A DNA stretch of 32,441 nt from Rhodoferax sp. (GTDB lineage: Bacteria; Pseudomonadota; Gammaproteobacteria; Burkholderiales; Burkholderiaceae_C), in NCBI GenBank assembly GCA_030683195.1, contig JAUXQA010000012.1:1-32441 (forward strand), written 5' to 3'. The notes under the pieces are model-generated. The model searched no databases and was not told the origin of the DNA. It saw nothing but the letters and a program-made list of their open reading frames with translations. Within the stretch, counting starts at the first letter, position 1. Every line of letters begins with the position of its first letter. The position numbers were made by a program, and so were the translations under genes. Shown in pieces: positions 8,384 through 16,379 of the stretch.

Positions 8384-9628
8384 TCATGCTTTGGGCGGTG
8401 TTCCTTCGGCATTTGAGACGACAACATCGATTTGGATCAAAGCATTGCCGGCCAATCCAGATACGCCAACTGTTCTTCGGGCAGGAACACCGCCCGGGAA
8501 GAATGTGGTGTAAACCTCGTCCACCGCTGCCACGTCTTCGATGTTTTTAAGGGCGATGTTTACTTTCACTGTATCGCTCATGACGTGGCCGATACTTTCA
8601 ACAATCGCCTTGATGTTTTTCAGGCACTGGCCCGCCTGTTCCTTGACGCCGCCAGCGATCATTTCACCAGTTTTTGGATCCAAAGCCAATTGCGCTGAAA
8701 TATGGTTGTAGTGAGAAAAGGCGACAGTTTGTGAGAAGGGGCCTCTTGTCGCATTGTCCGTATTGTTTGCTTTGATGACGATGTTGCGCGCGTCTTCAAC
8801 CGCTTGCGGGGGTGTGCCGTCTCCGTGTGACACAACGGCTTCGATTTGCACCAACGCATCCATCGGCAACGCTGAAGCCACCACGGCCGTCAACGCTGGC
8901 ACATAGCCCGGGAAATATGTTTTATAGGCTGCAGTTGCAGTTTTGATGTCCGAGACATTTGTCACGAACAAGGTGATTCTGACCACATCATCCATCACGT
9001 GGTCGATGCTCTCCAAAATGCACCGGATGTTTTTCAGGCACTGCTCACTCTGCTCTTTGACGCCGCCCGCGACCAGTTCGCCAGTTTGGGGATCCAAAGG
9101 CAACTGGGCTGAGATATTGTTGTAGTGAGAAAAAGCGACGGTTTGTGTAGACAGAGGACTTTTGGGTGCGCTTTCCGTATTTCTTGCCACTTTGACAAGG
9201 TCGCCGGCCTGCGGCGCTTGCGGAATGGTGCCTTCGCCGTTGGATACAAGGGCTTCAATTTGCACCAGCGCACCCAGGGGTAAAGCGGCAACAGCAAGGG
9301 TTGTCCGGGTAGGAACATAGCCGGAGAAGAACGTTGTAAAAACTTCATCTACAGCGTCCATATCCGATATGTTCTTGACGAATGTAGTGAGCCTGACCAC
9401 ATCGTCCATCGCATGGTCGATGCTGTCCAGAATGGCCTTGATGTTTTCAAAGCACTGCCGCGCTTGCTCTTTGACACCGCCGGCCACCAATTCACCGGTT
9501 TTTGGATCGACAGGCAGCTGAGCTGCGAGATTGTTGTAGTGAGAGAACGCGACGGACTGTGAATAGGGGCCTGTACTTTTTGGCGCATTTGCCGTATTTC
9601 TTGCCAAGACTGCGTTGTAGTTACTCAT
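8384..9628 (-). CDS. Protein with three tandem RidA (YjgF/YER057c/UK114) domains (ORF open to 9700; MSNYNAVLARN start preferred)
   Basis: Three copies of [Q/S]xVAFSHYNxxxAQLxxDPxTGExxAGGVKEQxxQCxxNIxxIxxSIxHxMxDxVx, spaced exactly 138 codons (V of VAFSHYN encoded at ~9553, 9139, 8725). Confidence 0.92.
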   Translation of the reverse strand: MSNYNAVLARNTANAPKSTGPYSQSVAFSHYNNLAAQLPVDPKTGELVAGGVKEQARQCFENIKAILDSIDHAMDDVVRLTTFVKNISDMDAVDEVFTTFFSGYVPTRTTLAVAALPLGALVQIEALVSNGEGTIPQAPQAGDLVKVARNTESAPKSPLSTQTVAFSHYNNISAQLPLDPQTGELVAGGVKEQSEQCLKNIRCILESIDHVMDDVVRITLFVTNVSDIKTATAAYKTYFPGYVPALTAVVASALPMDALVQIEAVVSHGDGTPPQAVEDARNIVIKANNTDNATRGPFSQTVAFSHYNHISAQLALDPKTGEMIAGGVKEQAGQCLKNIKAIVESIGHVMSDTVKVNIALKNIEDVAAVDEVYTTFFPGGVPARRTVGVSGLAGNALIQIDVVVSNAEGTPPKA

Positions 9629-9887
9629 GAGATGATTGAATTCTGGGGTTGTAGTTGTAAGCTGATTTAACGTGATTTGGAAACCGGACAAGCATTTCAA
9701 CTGCCTTCTGGACAGAATCGTAGCTTTGATCGACCACTAACCCACGTTAAAACCCTAGGGATTCTCGCTGCAGACCGACTCTTGGGCAAGCCACTGCCAT
9801 CACCAAAAATGTGCCTGCTGGTCGAAGACATGGTCGCCTGACACCAGCCCGCCCAAAGCGGGGCAGGACCGGTGTGAATGATGCGAA

Positions 9888-9933
9888 TTCAATAGCTGCA
9901 AACACAATAGACACGCCGGCCAGAGGTCAATTT
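9888..9933 (+). repeat. Dispersed 46-nt intergenic repeat, copy A
   Basis: ttcaatagc-N16-acgccggccagaggtcaattt; shares 9 nt at the left end and 21 identical nt at the right end with copy B at identical spacing. Confidence 0.7.
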
Positions 9934-9947
9934 TTCCATAAAAAGCC

Positions 9948-10976
9948 TCATGCCACCCCCACCCAGCGCTTGCGGCTGGTGCGCAGGCTGTAGCGGGCGC
10001 GGTAGGCGGCCGGCAGGTCGCCGGTCTGGCGGGCAAAAAGCCGCCGGAAGGTGCCGGTGTCCTGGTAGCCGCACATCTGCCCGACCTGCTCCACGCTCAC
10101 ATAGGTGGTCTCCAGCAGCACCCGCGCGCGGGCCACGCGCAGGCCATGCAAATAGTCCAGCGGGCTTTGTCCGTAGGCGCTGGCAAAGTGGCGCAAGAGC
10201 GTGCGTGGGCTGGTGGCAGCGGCCTGCGCCGTGGCACTCAGGCTGTAGGGCTCGGTCATGTGGTCTTCCAGCCAGCGGCGCGCCCGCTCCAGCGCGCCGG
10301 GGGGCAGCAGGCGGGGCAGGCCACCCAGCGCCATGCCGGCGGCCACCTGCTGACGCGACTCAGAGTGCAAAAAAACGTGGGCTGCGGCCATCGCCAGCTC
10401 GGCCACGGGGGTGTGACTCAGCATGTTCAGCACCACCTCGGTGGCCAATACCGGAGAGTCACAGGTCCAGACCCGGTCGTCCACGGTCCAGGGCCGGTCG
10501 GTCACCAGGGCCACGCCCGGGGCGTGGCGCAGCACCGGCCCGACAAACGGCCACGGCACCACCGCCTGACGCTGCAAAAGCCCCACTTCGCCCAGTAACG
10601 CCACCCCTGTGCTGAGCCCGGCGACCAAGCCACCCGCGGTATGCACTTGCGCCAGCCGGGCGGCTGACGGGGCAGCCTGGGTGACGAGTTGGTCCAGGTG
10701 GGGCCCGCTTTGCGCGTGCCAGCCGGGCACCACCACCATCGAGGCGCGCCCCCGCCAGCGTGACCCCTGAGGCAGAGACTGCGGCACGCGGGCACCTCGG
10801 GCGCACCACCAGCGCCAAGTCACCGGATCGGTCACGCGGGGCGTGCGCATGGCGGCCACCAGGTTGATGCAGCGCAGCACATCCACCACGGCCAACGCGG
10901 CCCCGGCCAGAACCTCGGGCCCCCAAAAAATGTCAATACACAACACGGGGCTGGCGGTTTGGGCAGGCAATGACAT
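9948..10976 (-). CDS. GlxA-family transcriptional regulator (DJ-1/PfpI-like domain + AraC HTH)
   Basis: C-terminal AraC HTH: LSATAQAAATSPRTLLRHFASAYGQSPLDYLHGLRVARARVLLETTYVSVEQVGQMCGYQDTGTFRRLFARQTG; N-terminal amidotransferase-like region. Confidence 0.88.
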   Translation of the reverse strand: MSLPAQTASPVLCIDIFWGPEVLAGAALAVVDVLRCINLVAAMRTPRVTDPVTWRWWCARGARVPQSLPQGSRWRGRASMVVVPGWHAQSGPHLDQLVTQAAPSAARLAQVHTAGGLVAGLSTGVALLGEVGLLQRQAVVPWPFVGPVLRHAPGVALVTDRPWTVDDRVWTCDSPVLATEVVLNMLSHTPVAELAMAAAHVFLHSESRQQVAAGMALGGLPRLLPPGALERARRWLEDHMTEPYSLSATAQAAATSPRTLLRHFASAYGQSPLDYLHGLRVARARVLLETTYVSVEQVGQMCGYQDTGTFRRLFARQTGDLPAAYRARYSLRTSRKRWVGVA

Positions 10977-11071
10977 GGCGAAAACACCCTCTATGTTGGC
11001 AACTGTTGCACTTTAGCCCAGGGCGCTTATCCCGTAGCATGAATCCTTCATCTGACCCACCAGGAGTTTTC

Positions 11072-12088
11072 ATGCGCTCACTGCCTCTTGCCGCCGCCCC
11101 TGCCTCACACGGCGGGCCCCGACCGAGCCGCCGCCATGTGGTGCTGGCGGGTGCCGCCACGCTGGCCGCTCCCCTGGCTTGGGCTCAACCCGGCTTCCCC
11201 AGCAAGCCGCTCACGCTGATCGTGCCGTTCACGGCGGGCGGTGCGTCGGATGTGGGCGCCCGCATGCTGGGCACGGAGCTGGGCAAACTGCTGGGCCAGA
11301 CCGTGGTGGTGGAAAACCTGGCCGGCGCCGGTGGCGCACTGGCCGTGCAAAAACTCATTCGCGCACCCGCCGACGGCCACACGCTGCTCTACGGCGGCAT
11401 GAGCGAGACCTTGCTGGTGCCTCTGATCAACCCCAGCCTGGGCTACAAACCCGAAGACCTGTTGCCCGTGGCCCTGGCGGGCAGCTCACCTATTTTGTTT
11501 GTGGTGCGACCTGAATTCCCGGCCAACACCATGGACGAGCTGGTGGCCCTCGTGCGCAAAAACCCCGGCAAGTACAGCTTTGGATCCGCCGGCATTGGCT
11601 CGTTTGCCCATGTGATGGGTGAGGTGGTCAAGGAGCGCGCGGGCATGTTCATGGTGCACATCCCGTACCGGGGCGGGCAGCAAATCATCACCGATGTGAT
11701 TGGCGGCCAACTCGACATGGGCATCACCACCGCCGCCAACGCGGCGTCGATGATTGCCAACAAACGGATCAAGGCGCTGGGCGTGTCGGCGGGGGAACGG
11801 GTGCCGGTAATCAAGGACGTGCCGACTTTCTCTGAGTCAAATGCACTCAAGGGCCTGCAGATGAGTGTGTGGGCTTTTGTTTACGCCCCCAACAACACGC
11901 CCGCAGCGGTAGTGGAACGGCTGAACACGGCCATCAACACCGCTCTGATGGTGCCCGCGCTCAAGGAGGCACGGGTTCGGCTGGCCTCCGACCTGCCCTC
12001 ACTGATGACGCCGGCACAGTCTCGCGCCTTTATTGCGGCAGAACAGGCACTGTACAAGCCGGTAACCAGCCGCATCAAGCCGGAGTAG
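11072..12088 (+). CDS. Bug/TctC-family tripartite tricarboxylate transporter solute-binding protein
   Basis: Tat-like SRRHVVLAGAATLAAPLAWA; FPSKPLTLIVPFTAGGASDVGARMLGTELGKLLGQTVVVENLAGAGGALA...; CAGGAG upstream of the ATG at 11072. Confidence 0.92.
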   Translation: MRSLPLAAAPASHGGPRPSRRHVVLAGAATLAAPLAWAQPGFPSKPLTLIVPFTAGGASDVGARMLGTELGKLLGQTVVVENLAGAGGALAVQKLIRAPADGHTLLYGGMSETLLVPLINPSLGYKPEDLLPVALAGSSPILFVVRPEFPANTMDELVALVRKNPGKYSFGSAGIGSFAHVMGEVVKERAGMFMVHIPYRGGQQIITDVIGGQLDMGITTAANAASMIANKRIKALGVSAGERVPVIKDVPTFSESNALKGLQMSVWAFVYAPNNTPAAVVERLNTAINTALMVPALKEARVRLASDLPSLMTPAQSRAFIAAEQALYKPVTSRIKPE

Positions 12089-12091
12089 GCG

Positions 12092-13273
12092 ATGCCAGAA
12101 ACCGCAAATCAAAGCGCGCACGCAGCACAACCCGGGCAAGCCCAAGACCCCCAAGACGCAGCCAACGGCACTGGCGGTTACGCCCCAAACTACGCGACCG
12201 CCCGCCAGCAGTTTCTGGCCGCAGCCACTCTGGCGGGCGTTGCGCTGGAGAGCCTGCCACACCCGCAACGCGGCCCCGACGGCGGCGAACTCGCCATTGA
12301 CCTGGCCTGGCTGGGCCCGCGCGACGCCCGACGCGTGCTGGTGCTGATCAGCGGCACGCATGGCGTGGAGGGCTACCAGGGCAGCGCAGCGCAAGTGGGC
12401 TTCTTGGGCCACACCGCCAGCACCCTGCCAGCGGATACTGCCGCGCTCTTGATACATGGCCTGAACCCGTACGGCTTCGCCTGGGTGCGCCGGGTGAATG
12501 AAGACAACGTCGACCTGAACCGCAACTACCTGGACTTCTCGCGCCCGCTGCCCAGCAACCCGGGCTACGGGCAAGTGCACACCCTGATCCTGCCCGAGGC
12601 ACTCACCCCGGCGGCACTGGGGCAGGTGCAGCAGCAGTTGGTGGATTACATGGCGCGCGTGGGCAAGGCGGCAGCCGCCACGGCCATCACCGGGGGGCAG
12701 TACACCCATCCGGACGGCATTTTTTATGGCGGCCAGGGCCTGTGCTGGTCCAACCGCCAACTGGCCAGCATCGCCGGACGCTACCTGCAGCAGGCCCGCG
12801 TGATCTGCGTGCTGGACCACCACACTGGCTTGGGACCGGTAGGCCACACCGAGCTGATCTGCCGCCACCCCGCAGGCTCGCCCGAGCTGGCACTGGCACG
12901 CGCCTGGCTGGGGCCGGATGTCACTTCCCCGGCCGCAGGCGAATCGGCCTCGGCCGTGATTGATGGCAATGTGCGCATGGCCTTTGGCAGCCTGTGCCCG
13001 CACGCGCAAGTGGTGTCGGTCTGCCCCGAGGTCGGCACGGCCCCCGAGTCCCAGGTGCTGGCGGCCTTGCTGGCTGACAACTGGCTGCACCAGCGCGGCG
13101 CGCCACTCTCGGCACTGGGTGACGGTGTGCGCCAGCAAATGATGGGTGCCTTTTGCCCCCGCGATGCCGCCTGGCGCGCCCAGGCGTTGGCGCGCGCCAT
13201 GGCCATCCACCGCAGCGCACTGGTCGGGCTGAGCAGCGTGGCGCTTGAACCGCTCGCGCTGGATCACGCATGA
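12092..13273 (+). CDS. DUF2817 / M14-like metallo-hydrolase
   Basis: VLVLISGTHGVEGYQGSAAQVGFL, ALLIHGLNPYGFAWVRRVNEDNVDLNRNYLDFS; begins 3 nt after the preceding stop. Confidence 0.87.
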   Translation: MPETANQSAHAAQPGQAQDPQDAANGTGGYAPNYATARQQFLAAATLAGVALESLPHPQRGPDGGELAIDLAWLGPRDARRVLVLISGTHGVEGYQGSAAQVGFLGHTASTLPADTAALLIHGLNPYGFAWVRRVNEDNVDLNRNYLDFSRPLPSNPGYGQVHTLILPEALTPAALGQVQQQLVDYMARVGKAAAATAITGGQYTHPDGIFYGGQGLCWSNRQLASIAGRYLQQARVICVLDHHTGLGPVGHTELICRHPAGSPELALARAWLGPDVTSPAAGESASAVIDGNVRMAFGSLCPHAQVVSVCPEVGTAPESQVLAALLADNWLHQRGAPLSALGDGVRQQMMGAFCPRDAAWRAQALARAMAIHRSALVGLSSVALEPLALDHA

Positions 13274-14814
13274 ACGCCGCAGCTTCACTTGCGCCCCGCC
13301 CCCTGCGTGTGGGTGTGTGCGGCTTCTTTATTGAGTGCAACCGTTGGTCCCCGCTGAGCACGGCCGACAGCTTCTTCGCCGGCATGGACCTGGCCGGTGA
13401 CGCCCTGCAAGCCGAACTCCGGCGCGAGCAGCCCCGCACCTTGCCCGACACGGCCGGCTTTGTGGCCGCCATGAACCGGCTCGGGCCTTGGGAACCTGTG
13501 GCCTTGCGCTTGGCCGCAGCCCAGCCCGGAGGCCCGGTGATGCACAGCTACTTCGAATCTGTCGCCCGAGATATCGAAGCGCGCCTGCTGGCCGCAGGCC
13601 CGCTGGACGCCGTGTTCATTTCATCCCATGGCGCCGCGCTGACCACCGAATGCGACGACCCGGATGGCGAGTTGTTTGAACGCATCCGCGCCATCGTGGG
13701 ACCAAATGTGCCAGTGGTGGCAGTGCTGGACTTGCACACCAATGTGTCGAGTCGCATGACCGATGCCCTGTCTGCGTTTGTCGCTTACCGCACCAACCCC
13801 CACACCGACCTGCGCGAGCGCGGTGAAGAGGCCGCGCAACTCCTGTACACGCTAGTGGCCCACGGCCCTGGAGTGGTGGAACTCGTCAAATTGCCCCTGG
13901 TTCCCCCGGCCACCACGCAACTGGTGAGGCCCGGCTCGCCTTACGCCGATCTGATTGCACTGGGGCAGACCCAGGCGGGTGGGTCAATTCTGAACGTGTC
14001 GCTGTGCGGCGGCTTTGCGTTGGCGGACTGCGCCAAGTGCGGCTTTTCAGTGGTGGTGACTGCGCAAGACGGCAACCGGGCTGCTGCCCGGGCCCTGGCG
14101 ACCGAACTCGCGCGCGCCGTGTGGCAGCAGCGCCACCGATTTGTCTCGCCGCTCACGCCTTTGCCCGATGCCGTGCGCGCTGCCGTGCTGGCCGGCCGCC
14201 CCGGGGGCCAGCCCCTGATATTGGCGGACGTGGCCGACAACCCGGGCGGTGGCGGGGGTGGCAACACCGTCACGCTCCTGCTCGCCCTGCTCAGTTCGGG
14301 TGCCCAGGGTGTCTTGCTGGGGGTGTTCACCGACGCCGCACTGGCCAGCGAAGCCCACGCGCGGGGCGTCGGCGCTGAATTCACCGCGCACTTCAACCGC
14401 GACAGCACCGATCCAGTGATTGCACCCTCCCTCAGTCACCCGGCCCGCGTGCTGACCCTGTCCGACGGGCGTTTTGTCGGGCGCCAAGGCATGGTGAGCG
14501 GCTCGCAGCAGACCATGGGGCACTCGGCCCTGCTGGACCTGGGCGGCGTGCGGGTAGCGGTGATCTCACAGCGCCAGCAACTCATTGACCCCGCGCAACT
14601 TGACGTGCTGGGCGTGGACCTCGGCACCGTGTGCACCCTGGCCGTCAAGAGCCGAGGGCATTTTCGGGCCGCTTTTGAGGGGTTTGCACCGCCTGACCGC
14701 ATACTGGAGGTGGATTGCCCCGGCCTGACCACGCCCAACCTCGCCACCTTGGCGTGGACCCGCCTGCCGCGCCCTATTTTCCCCCTTGACCAAGACCTTA
14801 CCTGGACCCCCTGA
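13270..14814 (+). CDS. M81-family metallopeptidase (MlrC-like)
   Basis: FISSHGAALTTECDDPDGELFERIR, VVAVLDLHTNVSSRMTDAL, AYRTNPHTDLRERGEEAAQLL, ADVADNPGGGGGGNT; overlaps previous gene by 4 nt (ATGA). Confidence 0.9.
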   Translation: MNAAASLAPRPLRVGVCGFFIECNRWSPLSTADSFFAGMDLAGDALQAELRREQPRTLPDTAGFVAAMNRLGPWEPVALRLAAAQPGGPVMHSYFESVARDIEARLLAAGPLDAVFISSHGAALTTECDDPDGELFERIRAIVGPNVPVVAVLDLHTNVSSRMTDALSAFVAYRTNPHTDLRERGEEAAQLLYTLVAHGPGVVELVKLPLVPPATTQLVRPGSPYADLIALGQTQAGGSILNVSLCGGFALADCAKCGFSVVVTAQDGNRAAARALATELARAVWQQRHRFVSPLTPLPDAVRAAVLAGRPGGQPLILADVADNPGGGGGGNTVTLLLALLSSGAQGVLLGVFTDAALASEAHARGVGAEFTAHFNRDSTDPVIAPSLSHPARVLTLSDGRFVGRQGMVSGSQQTMGHSALLDLGGVRVAVISQRQQLIDPAQLDVLGVDLGTVCTLAVKSRGHFRAAFEGFAPPDRILEVDCPGLTTPNLATLAWTRLPRPIFPLDQDLTWTP

Positions 14815-14816
14815 AC

Positions 14817-15827
14817 ATGGACTTATCCCGCTTTCCCCGCCGCCGTTACTCAGTTGGACCCACACCCCTGGAGTTTTTGCCCAACTTCACCCGCGCCCTG
14901 AGCCCCCAGGGCGACGGCCCCAACATCTGGATCAAGCGCGATGACATGCTGGGCCTGTTCCCCGGCGGCAACAAGACCCGCAAGCTCGAATTTTTGATGG
15001 CCGATGCCCTGGCCCAGGGCACCGACACGCTCATCACCTGCGGCGCGCCCCAAAGCAACCACTGCCGCATTACGCTGGCGGCCGCCGTCAAAGAAGGCCT
15101 CAAATGCCGCTTTGTGATTGAAGAGCGGGTGCCCGGCAGCTTCAACGAGACGGCCAGCGGCAACCATTTCATGTTCCGCCTCATGGGCGTGGAGTCCCTC
15201 ACCGTGGTGCCCGGAGGCAGCAACATGGCCGCTGCCATGCAACAGGTGGCCGACGAGCTGGCTGCCGAGGGCCGCAAGGGCTACATCATCCCCGGCGGCG
15301 GCTCCAACGCACTGGGCGGCCTGGGTTACGTGGCCTGTGCGCAAGAGCTGCAAGAGCAGTTTTTCGAGCAAGGCGTGCGCATCGACCGCGTGGTGGTGGG
15401 CTCCGGCAGCTCGGGCACGCACGGCGGGCTGCTTGCAGGATTTTTGGGCAACCACATCAACATCCCCATCGTGGGCATTGGCGTGAGCCGCGATCCCGCC
15501 GATCAGGAGCCGCTGGTGCACAAGGAAGCGCAGGCCGTGGCCGACCTGCTGGGCACTGGCATGACCATTCCGCGCGACGCGGTGGTGAGCGTGGGCGGCT
15601 ACTGGCAACCCAAATACTCCATCCCGAACGACGCCATGGTGGAGGCCGTGCAACTCCTGGCCCGCACCGAGGCAATTCTCCTGGACCCGGTCTACACCGG
15701 CAAAATCATGGCCGGCCTGATCGGCCTGGCACGCCAAGGCTTTTTCAAACCGGGCGAAAACGTGCTGTTTTTACACACCGGCGGCATGCCGTCCCTGCAC
15801 GCCTATGAACGGGAGTTGCTGGCCTGA
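14817..15827 (+). CDS. PLP-dependent D-cysteine desulfhydrase / ACC-deaminase family enzyme
   Basis: IWIKRDDMLGLFPGGNKTRKLEFLMADAL, GAPQSNHCR, VVVGSGSSGTHGGLLAG, LDPVYTGKIMAGLI, LFLHTGGMPSLHAYE. Confidence 0.9.
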   Translation: MDLSRFPRRRYSVGPTPLEFLPNFTRALSPQGDGPNIWIKRDDMLGLFPGGNKTRKLEFLMADALAQGTDTLITCGAPQSNHCRITLAAAVKEGLKCRFVIEERVPGSFNETASGNHFMFRLMGVESLTVVPGGSNMAAAMQQVADELAAEGRKGYIIPGGGSNALGGLGYVACAQELQEQFFEQGVRIDRVVVGSGSSGTHGGLLAGFLGNHINIPIVGIGVSRDPADQEPLVHKEAQAVADLLGTGMTIPRDAVVSVGGYWQPKYSIPNDAMVEAVQLLARTEAILLDPVYTGKIMAGLIGLARQGFFKPGENVLFLHTGGMPSLHAYERELLA

Positions 15828-15834
15828 TTATTAT

Positions 15835-15880
15835 TTCAATAGCAATCCAGGCAATTAATACGCCGGCCAGAGGTCAATTT
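15835..15880 (+). repeat. Dispersed 46-nt intergenic repeat, copy B
   Basis: ttcaatagc-N16-acgccggccagaggtcaattt; same length and ends as copy A. Confidence 0.7.
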
Positions 15881-16010: not shown

Positions 16011-16379
16011 ATGAACCTATTTCGATCCAGCTTGCTATTGACCGCCTTGACTGCCGTCATGGCCCAAGGCTCCGCGTTTGCCGGCGCGGCCGACTTCACC
16101 CTGGTGAACCGCACCGGCTATGACCTGCGCGAGGTCTACATTTCTCCCTCCAACAAAAACGCCTGGGGCAAAGACCGCATGGGAGACTATGTGCTGGAGA
16201 ACAACAAGCAACGCCTGTTCAAGTTCTCGGACAAAAGCGCTTGCACCCAGGACTTGAAAGTGGTCTTTGACGATGACGGCTCCGAAGTCATCTGGGAGGA
16301 CTTCGACCTGTGCGAACTCAACAAAATAACCCTGCGCTACAACCGCAAGACCGACGTGGTGTCGGCCGACACCGAATAA
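16011..16379 (+). CDS. Secreted hypothetical protein
   Basis: Signal peptide MNLFRSSLLLTALTAVMAQGSAFAGA; mature domain DFTLVNRTGYDLREVYISPSNKNAWG...; start at 16011 within the larger ORF. Confidence 0.7.
   Translation: MNLFRSSLLLTALTAVMAQGSAFAGAADFTLVNRTGYDLREVYISPSNKNAWGKDRMGDYVLENNKQRLFKFSDKSACTQDLKVVFDDDGSEVIWEDFDLCELNKITLRYNRKTDVVSADTE

Follow-up and report, generated by a model that had tools for sequence, protein, structure and literature searches.

A divergent regulator facing four closely packed genes raises the question of what a periplasmic receptor, two metallo-hydrolases and a PLP enzyme may do together. The genes lie in a 32,441-nucleotide stretch of DNA from Rhodoferax sp. (the window), which bears the whole five-gene block and is counted as one of the close loci compared below. 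The regulator, a GlxA/FtrA-like member of the AraC family (9948 to 10976, minus strand), is recognised by Pfam profiles (HTH_18/HTH_AraC). Its best NCBIfam match is FtrA, with 103 bits over residues 76-330 against a cut-off of 425, and the N-terminal DJ-1/PfpI-like domain is seen solely through this sub-cut-off similarity. The start of the regulator is separated by 95 bp from that of the Bug (TctC-type) periplasmic receptor gene (11072 to 12088, plus strand; PF03401, E 1e-55), whose likely start is the ATG at 11072 with an AGGAG ahead of it. The receptor has a TctC domain and, by inspection, a twin-arginine (SRR) signal sequence. Downstream on the plus strand follow genes for a DUF2817 protein (12092 to 13273; E 9e-113), an M81 metallo-hydrolase (13270 to 14814; DUF1485 3e-72, MlrC_C 3e-39) and a fold-type II PLP enzyme (14817 to 15827; PALP 8e-46). 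The intergenic distances are 3, -4 and 2 nt, the DUF2817 and M81 genes overlapping by 4 nt. All gene positions and gaps given by the sequence-only reading, and the divergent GlxA-type regulator 95 bp upstream, hold on re-examination; the single transcript that it read from the gaps is likewise supported, the Bug, DUF2817, M81 and PLP genes forming one apparent transcription unit.

That reading would have been refuted by a lack of conserved synteny beyond the strain, and such synteny exists. An M81 scan of 85,462 species genomes, together with searches of the bacterial family and the genus, yields 23 close loci (M81 at least 58% identical to that of the window) after removal of contigs found twice. 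All are metagenome-assembled, with record titles, where given, of Rhodoferax, Ramlibacter, Comamonadaceae and Burkholderiales, and the operon looks common to many freshwater relatives. The contig runs past M81 in 20 of the 23, which makes these testable for a downstream neighbour. A PLP gene lies directly downstream of M81 in 16 of them (the window, L043-L048, L051, L052, L054, L061, L074, L228, L229, L230 and L236). Among the other testable loci, a mere remnant of the PLP gene survives in L042, and L040, L049 and L050 have M81 with no PLP gene downstream, L050 offering merely about 1.1 kb there. The divergent regulator is present in 18/23 loci, two of the copies being fragments. The DUF2817 gene, implied earlier to be a core member, turns out to be optional: it occurs in six of the 23 (the window, L049, L056, L228, L229 and, as a fragment, L061), and all five genes in full order are found in the window, L228 and L229. 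In L236 an internal deletion extends from the regulator into M81, which with the near-loss of the PLP gene in L042 shows that erosion of the operon is under way in certain lineages.

The M81-PLP pair itself recurs in three different surroundings, which argues that the two proteins work together: the Bug operon, a PccB-PccA-VOC-M81-PLP arrangement (L051, L052) and a GlxA-M81-PLP-alpha/beta hydrolase-Bug-aspartate dehydrogenase arrangement (L047, L048). When M81 and PLP searches of the bacterial family are compared, no such linkage is seen outside this M81 clade. Across loci the GlxA, Bug, M81 and PLP proteins diverge in step, with r of 0.71-0.93 between their sequence distances, a descriptive figure of which shared ancestry alone could give part. 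Viral contigs scanned with DUF2817 and the PLP enzyme contain no relatives, and E. coli genomes give no DNA match.

The intergenic region between regulator and receptor contains a predicted promoter/operator block (10983 to 11048, plus strand) that aligns without gaps and with constant spacing in 11 loci (the window, L041, L043, L044, L045, L049, L056, L074, L228, L229 and L230). Its form is TTGGCAAC-N3-TGCACTTTA-N19-TAnnAT, the first element also being written TTGGC(AAC), and the eight loci first aligned agree in full at 22 of the 66 columns. In the window the first two elements occupy 10996-11015 and, after 19 nt, a -10-like TAGCAT lies at 11035-11040. The exact site occurs once in the genome; at three mismatches the other matches are at control level. 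The short palindrome GTTGGCAAC beside the -35-like stretch would fit an AraC-type activator.

A chance cluster of unrelated genes could be imagined from the patchy distribution of the close M81 (carried within the genus by about 10 of 90 genomes) and from the repeat that stands on each side of the block (9888 to 9933 and 15835 to 15880). This repeat is interspersed genome-wide, its core being found at 14 genome sites at up to two mismatches against none for a reversed control, and the two copies that bracket the five genes are the only exact core matches. In a Rhodoferax locus (L056) the block adjoins other genes, so that it may have moved. The recurrence of this gene order in further genomes nevertheless makes the block more than chance; the promoter block, a gene fusion described below and the correlated divergence also contradict a fortuitous cluster, whose probability we regard as close to negligible.

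The two metallo-hydrolases named by the sequence-only reading both keep intact zinc ligands. In M81 these are E22, D154, H156 and H178, corresponding to E39/D167/H169/H191 of MlrC, the peptidase of linearised microcystin. In the M81 of L051 and L052 D154 is replaced by G, and this version of the enzyme may thus be altered. Kinship with MlrC suggests an operon for cyanopeptide degradation related to the microcystin mlr pathway; several loci appear lake-derived and cyanobacterial peptides carry D-residues. However, the operon M81 scores 142 bits against a cut-off of 999 with the MlrC model (NF041767), and the operon differs in layout and is devoid of any other mlr-type gene. The MlrC general base E70 is not kept in the clade either: one pairwise alignment had suggested it as a conserved base, and the multiple alignment ruled this out, the position being E53 here and A, Q, P, D, N, T or C elsewhere. 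A cyanopeptide function is thus very unlikely.

The DUF2817 protein, still annotated in Pfam as a protein of unknown function, carries H90, E93 and H244 (zinc), N143-R144 and E313, invariant in 23 aligned rows and equivalent to the M14-type catalytic set HxxE...NR...H...E. Foldseek searches with its AlphaFold model (pLDDT 85) match aspartoacylase/succinylglutamate desuccinylase, M14 carboxypeptidases and the cyanophycin dipeptide hydrolase CphZ (E 5.6e-7, at modest to weak TM-scores of 0.3-0.4), and an M14/aspartoacylase-like zinc hydrolase is predicted. A tie between the two hydrolases is provided by L228 and L229, whose DUF2817 and M81 genes are fused into a single open frame of 881 and 879 aa, respectively; the junction is short and nearly the same in both. 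The L056 genes also share a frame up to the contig end, an arrangement that may reflect an assembly indel. Proximity of M81 and DUF2817 in four other genomes, although real, was discounted as a common neighbourhood around a gene that by its sequence is pantothenate-kinase-like.

Both hydrolases have generic relatives in the same bacterial family. Generic M81 genes sit in operons with a Dpp ABC transporter and an amidase, and so resemble the present locus in combining M81 with uptake and amide-hydrolase genes; they differ in that M81 is 31-38% identical, uptake is of the ABC and not the Bug type, and there is no PLP gene. DUF2817 occurs in 148 of 300 sampled genomes of the family, about half. 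The generic form shares the domain and the M14-like residues but is only 36-43% identical and, in the loci examined, almost always adjoins an M20 amidohydrolase. The location of generic DUF2817 beside M20 genes and of many generic M81 genes beside Dpp transporters and amidases marks both by context as genes of amide or peptide hydrolysis. In L176-L191 the generic DUF2817 gene lies directly behind the M20 gene, suggesting a separate two-hydrolase unit. To our knowledge most M81 proteins lack an assigned substrate, and the compact operon, natural fusion and mapped promoter block offer a good handle for assigning both DUF2817 and M81.

The sequence-only reading placed the PLP enzyme in the D-cysteine desulfhydrase/ACC deaminase family; a lyase tied to the M81 gene stands, and the label does not. 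D-cysteine desulfhydrase is ruled out as an identity by 285 bits against a cut-off of 429 (two further models give 272 and 267 bits against 610 and 469), and ACC deaminase (TIGR01274) by 237 bits against 392 and by T/T at the positions of the Glu/Leu pair, the active-site pair of ACC deaminase. The enzyme shares family and PLP fold with DcyD and ACC deaminase, and the T of YTGK and the T of HTGG are as in DcyD, but it has its own motif (GAPQSNHCR/SSGTHGG) and no cystine-transport operon; its PLP motif is intact. The best NCBIfam model is CuyA (NF052482), passed marginally with 479 bits against a cut-off of 450; the controls, CuyA of Ruegeria pomeroyi and DcyD of E. coli, score 553 and 405 bits.

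This match suggests organosulfonate catabolism, in which a true CuyA would split D-cysteate into pyruvate, ammonia and sulfite, the hydrolases having first released the cysteate from a conjugate of N-acyl or peptidyl type. CuyA prefers D-cysteate (PMC11382572), a preference that would fit a D-amino-acid theme. In a family search, however, the scores above the CuyA cut-off split into a CuyA-type group at 522-561 and a lower group at 455-478 (overall, CuyA-type proteins reach 562 and the present clade spans 455-484), and a tree sets the present clade apart with support of 100/99. The operon enzyme belongs to the same fold-type II family as the R. pomeroyi protein but is 46% identical to it and lacks the CuyA motifs GATQSNHAR, ATGSAGTQAGL and YSGKG, carrying GAPQSNHCR, GSGSSGTHGG and YTGK; GTHGG/YTGK thus replaces GTQAG/YSGK. 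The exporter, racemase, taurine and TRAP genes observed near CuyA genes are all absent here. The nearest outsider of the clade is a Deinococcus protein whose gene adjoins an amino acid racemase gene. Because of the separate clade and the clean motif differences the NCBIfam name is not adopted here, and we consider the sulfonate route unlikely. On sequence criteria the enzyme is a fold-type II member of an uncharacterised clade beside CuyA. Since proteins devoid of the CuyA signature get through the CuyA model, cysteate degradation may be predicted too often for bacteria of this kind.

Members of the PLP clade are often found where M81 is absent, and the function of the clade is therefore independent of this operon. 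Several close relatives without M81 occur in propionyl-CoA carboxylase/methylmalonyl-CoA mutase clusters. In four of these (L143, L144, L148, L149) the PLP gene lies between PccA-VOC and 2-oxoacid:acceptor oxidoreductase genes, and L140 has the same type of cluster without the oxidoreductase; this company fits a 2-oxoacid product. From it the PLP enzyme could be taken to turn, for instance, a D-threonine-type residue into 2-oxobutyrate that supplies propionyl-CoA metabolism, and the operon to degrade peptides or amides bearing such residues. The tight PccB-PccA-VOC-PLP clusters beside methylmalonyl-CoA mutase and 2-oxoacid:acceptor oxidoreductase genes, the location of M81 between VOC and PLP in L051 and L052, and the D-Ser-dehydratase/D-Thr-aldolase-type neighbours of distant M81s all point this way. 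The case is one of context, though, and the Bug-type operon is devoid of propionyl-CoA genes; we also know of no enzyme of this PLP fold group shown to act on D-threonine, which counts against it. We judge a dedicated 2-oxobutyrate function improbable, and the propionyl-CoA clusters look like a separate amino-acid-to-propionyl-CoA route.

Context also bears on the configuration of the substrate. Of the more distant loci of the M81 clade, four of 11 (L055, L060, L062 and L078, in Cupriavidus, Boseongicola and Ciceribacter) adjoin proteins with PF01168 and PF14031, that of L060 assigned by similarity. These are D-serine-dehydratase-like, from an enzyme family whose substrates are D-serine, D-threonine or 3-hydroxy-D-aspartate. 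Family-wide, PF14031 near M81 is weakly enriched, with four genomes within 10 kb against about 0.9 expected by a hand estimate. The close locus L049/L235 adjoins DgcN and DgcA of D-glutamate catabolism (DgcA 405 against a cut-off of 400, DgcN 447 against 480). The segment L235:4823-19028, where an M81-DUF2817-Bug operon lies beside DgcA/DgcN, a Dpp transporter and a second, distant M81, is a possible D-amino-acid peptide island. The earlier guess of a D-amino-acid substrate thus gains support from gene context; its sulfur-containing alternative, for which CuyA as the closest model could speak, was not borne out.

The reading that we prefer, to which we give an about even chance, is a substrate-induced catabolic operon that frees an amino acid from a small amide or peptide. 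We infer that the GlxA-type activator would bind the conserved site, which overlaps the -35 region, and turn on the Bug, DUF2817, M81 and PLP genes as one message. In the periplasm the substrate, a small amide or peptide, would be captured by Bug and passed to a putative permease. In the cytoplasm M81, aided here by DUF2817, would hydrolyse the amide bond or bonds, and the PLP enzyme would then strip the beta substituent from the amino acid so freed, which is most likely a D-amino acid. This last step would yield ammonia and a 2-oxoacid, pyruvate or, if the substrate is beta-methylated, 2-oxobutyrate, which could enter central metabolism. A more specific version, held only tentatively, is that an unusual D-amino acid is released by the DUF2817-M81 pair, which some species have as a fused bifunctional protein, and is turned into a 2-oxoacid by a new subfamily of PLP lyases. 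No operon member has a characterised close homologue, and the proposal, if true, would provide first functions for DUF2817, this M81 clade and the PLP clade. The sequence-only reading did not recognise a described pathway; in agreement, a literature search found no M81-DUF2817 and no MlrC-desulfhydrase pathway, and the operon is apparently an undescribed, patchily distributed, catabolic one.

Two further genes lie just outside the repeats. On the right (16011-16379, plus strand) is a small secreted-looking protein of 122 aa that matches no Pfam family and has a weak, probably meaningless syringactin match of 19 bits. On the left (8384-9700, minus strand) three RidA domains are fused in one protein. 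A role for this RidA as a core partner in enamine clean-up was considered and rejected, since it is absent from related loci and outside the repeat. The R of the PxR motif, kept in the first and third domains, is by inspection an L in the middle one, and the same triple-RidA architecture occurs in one other genome (G311) of the 41 searched, with 76% identity.
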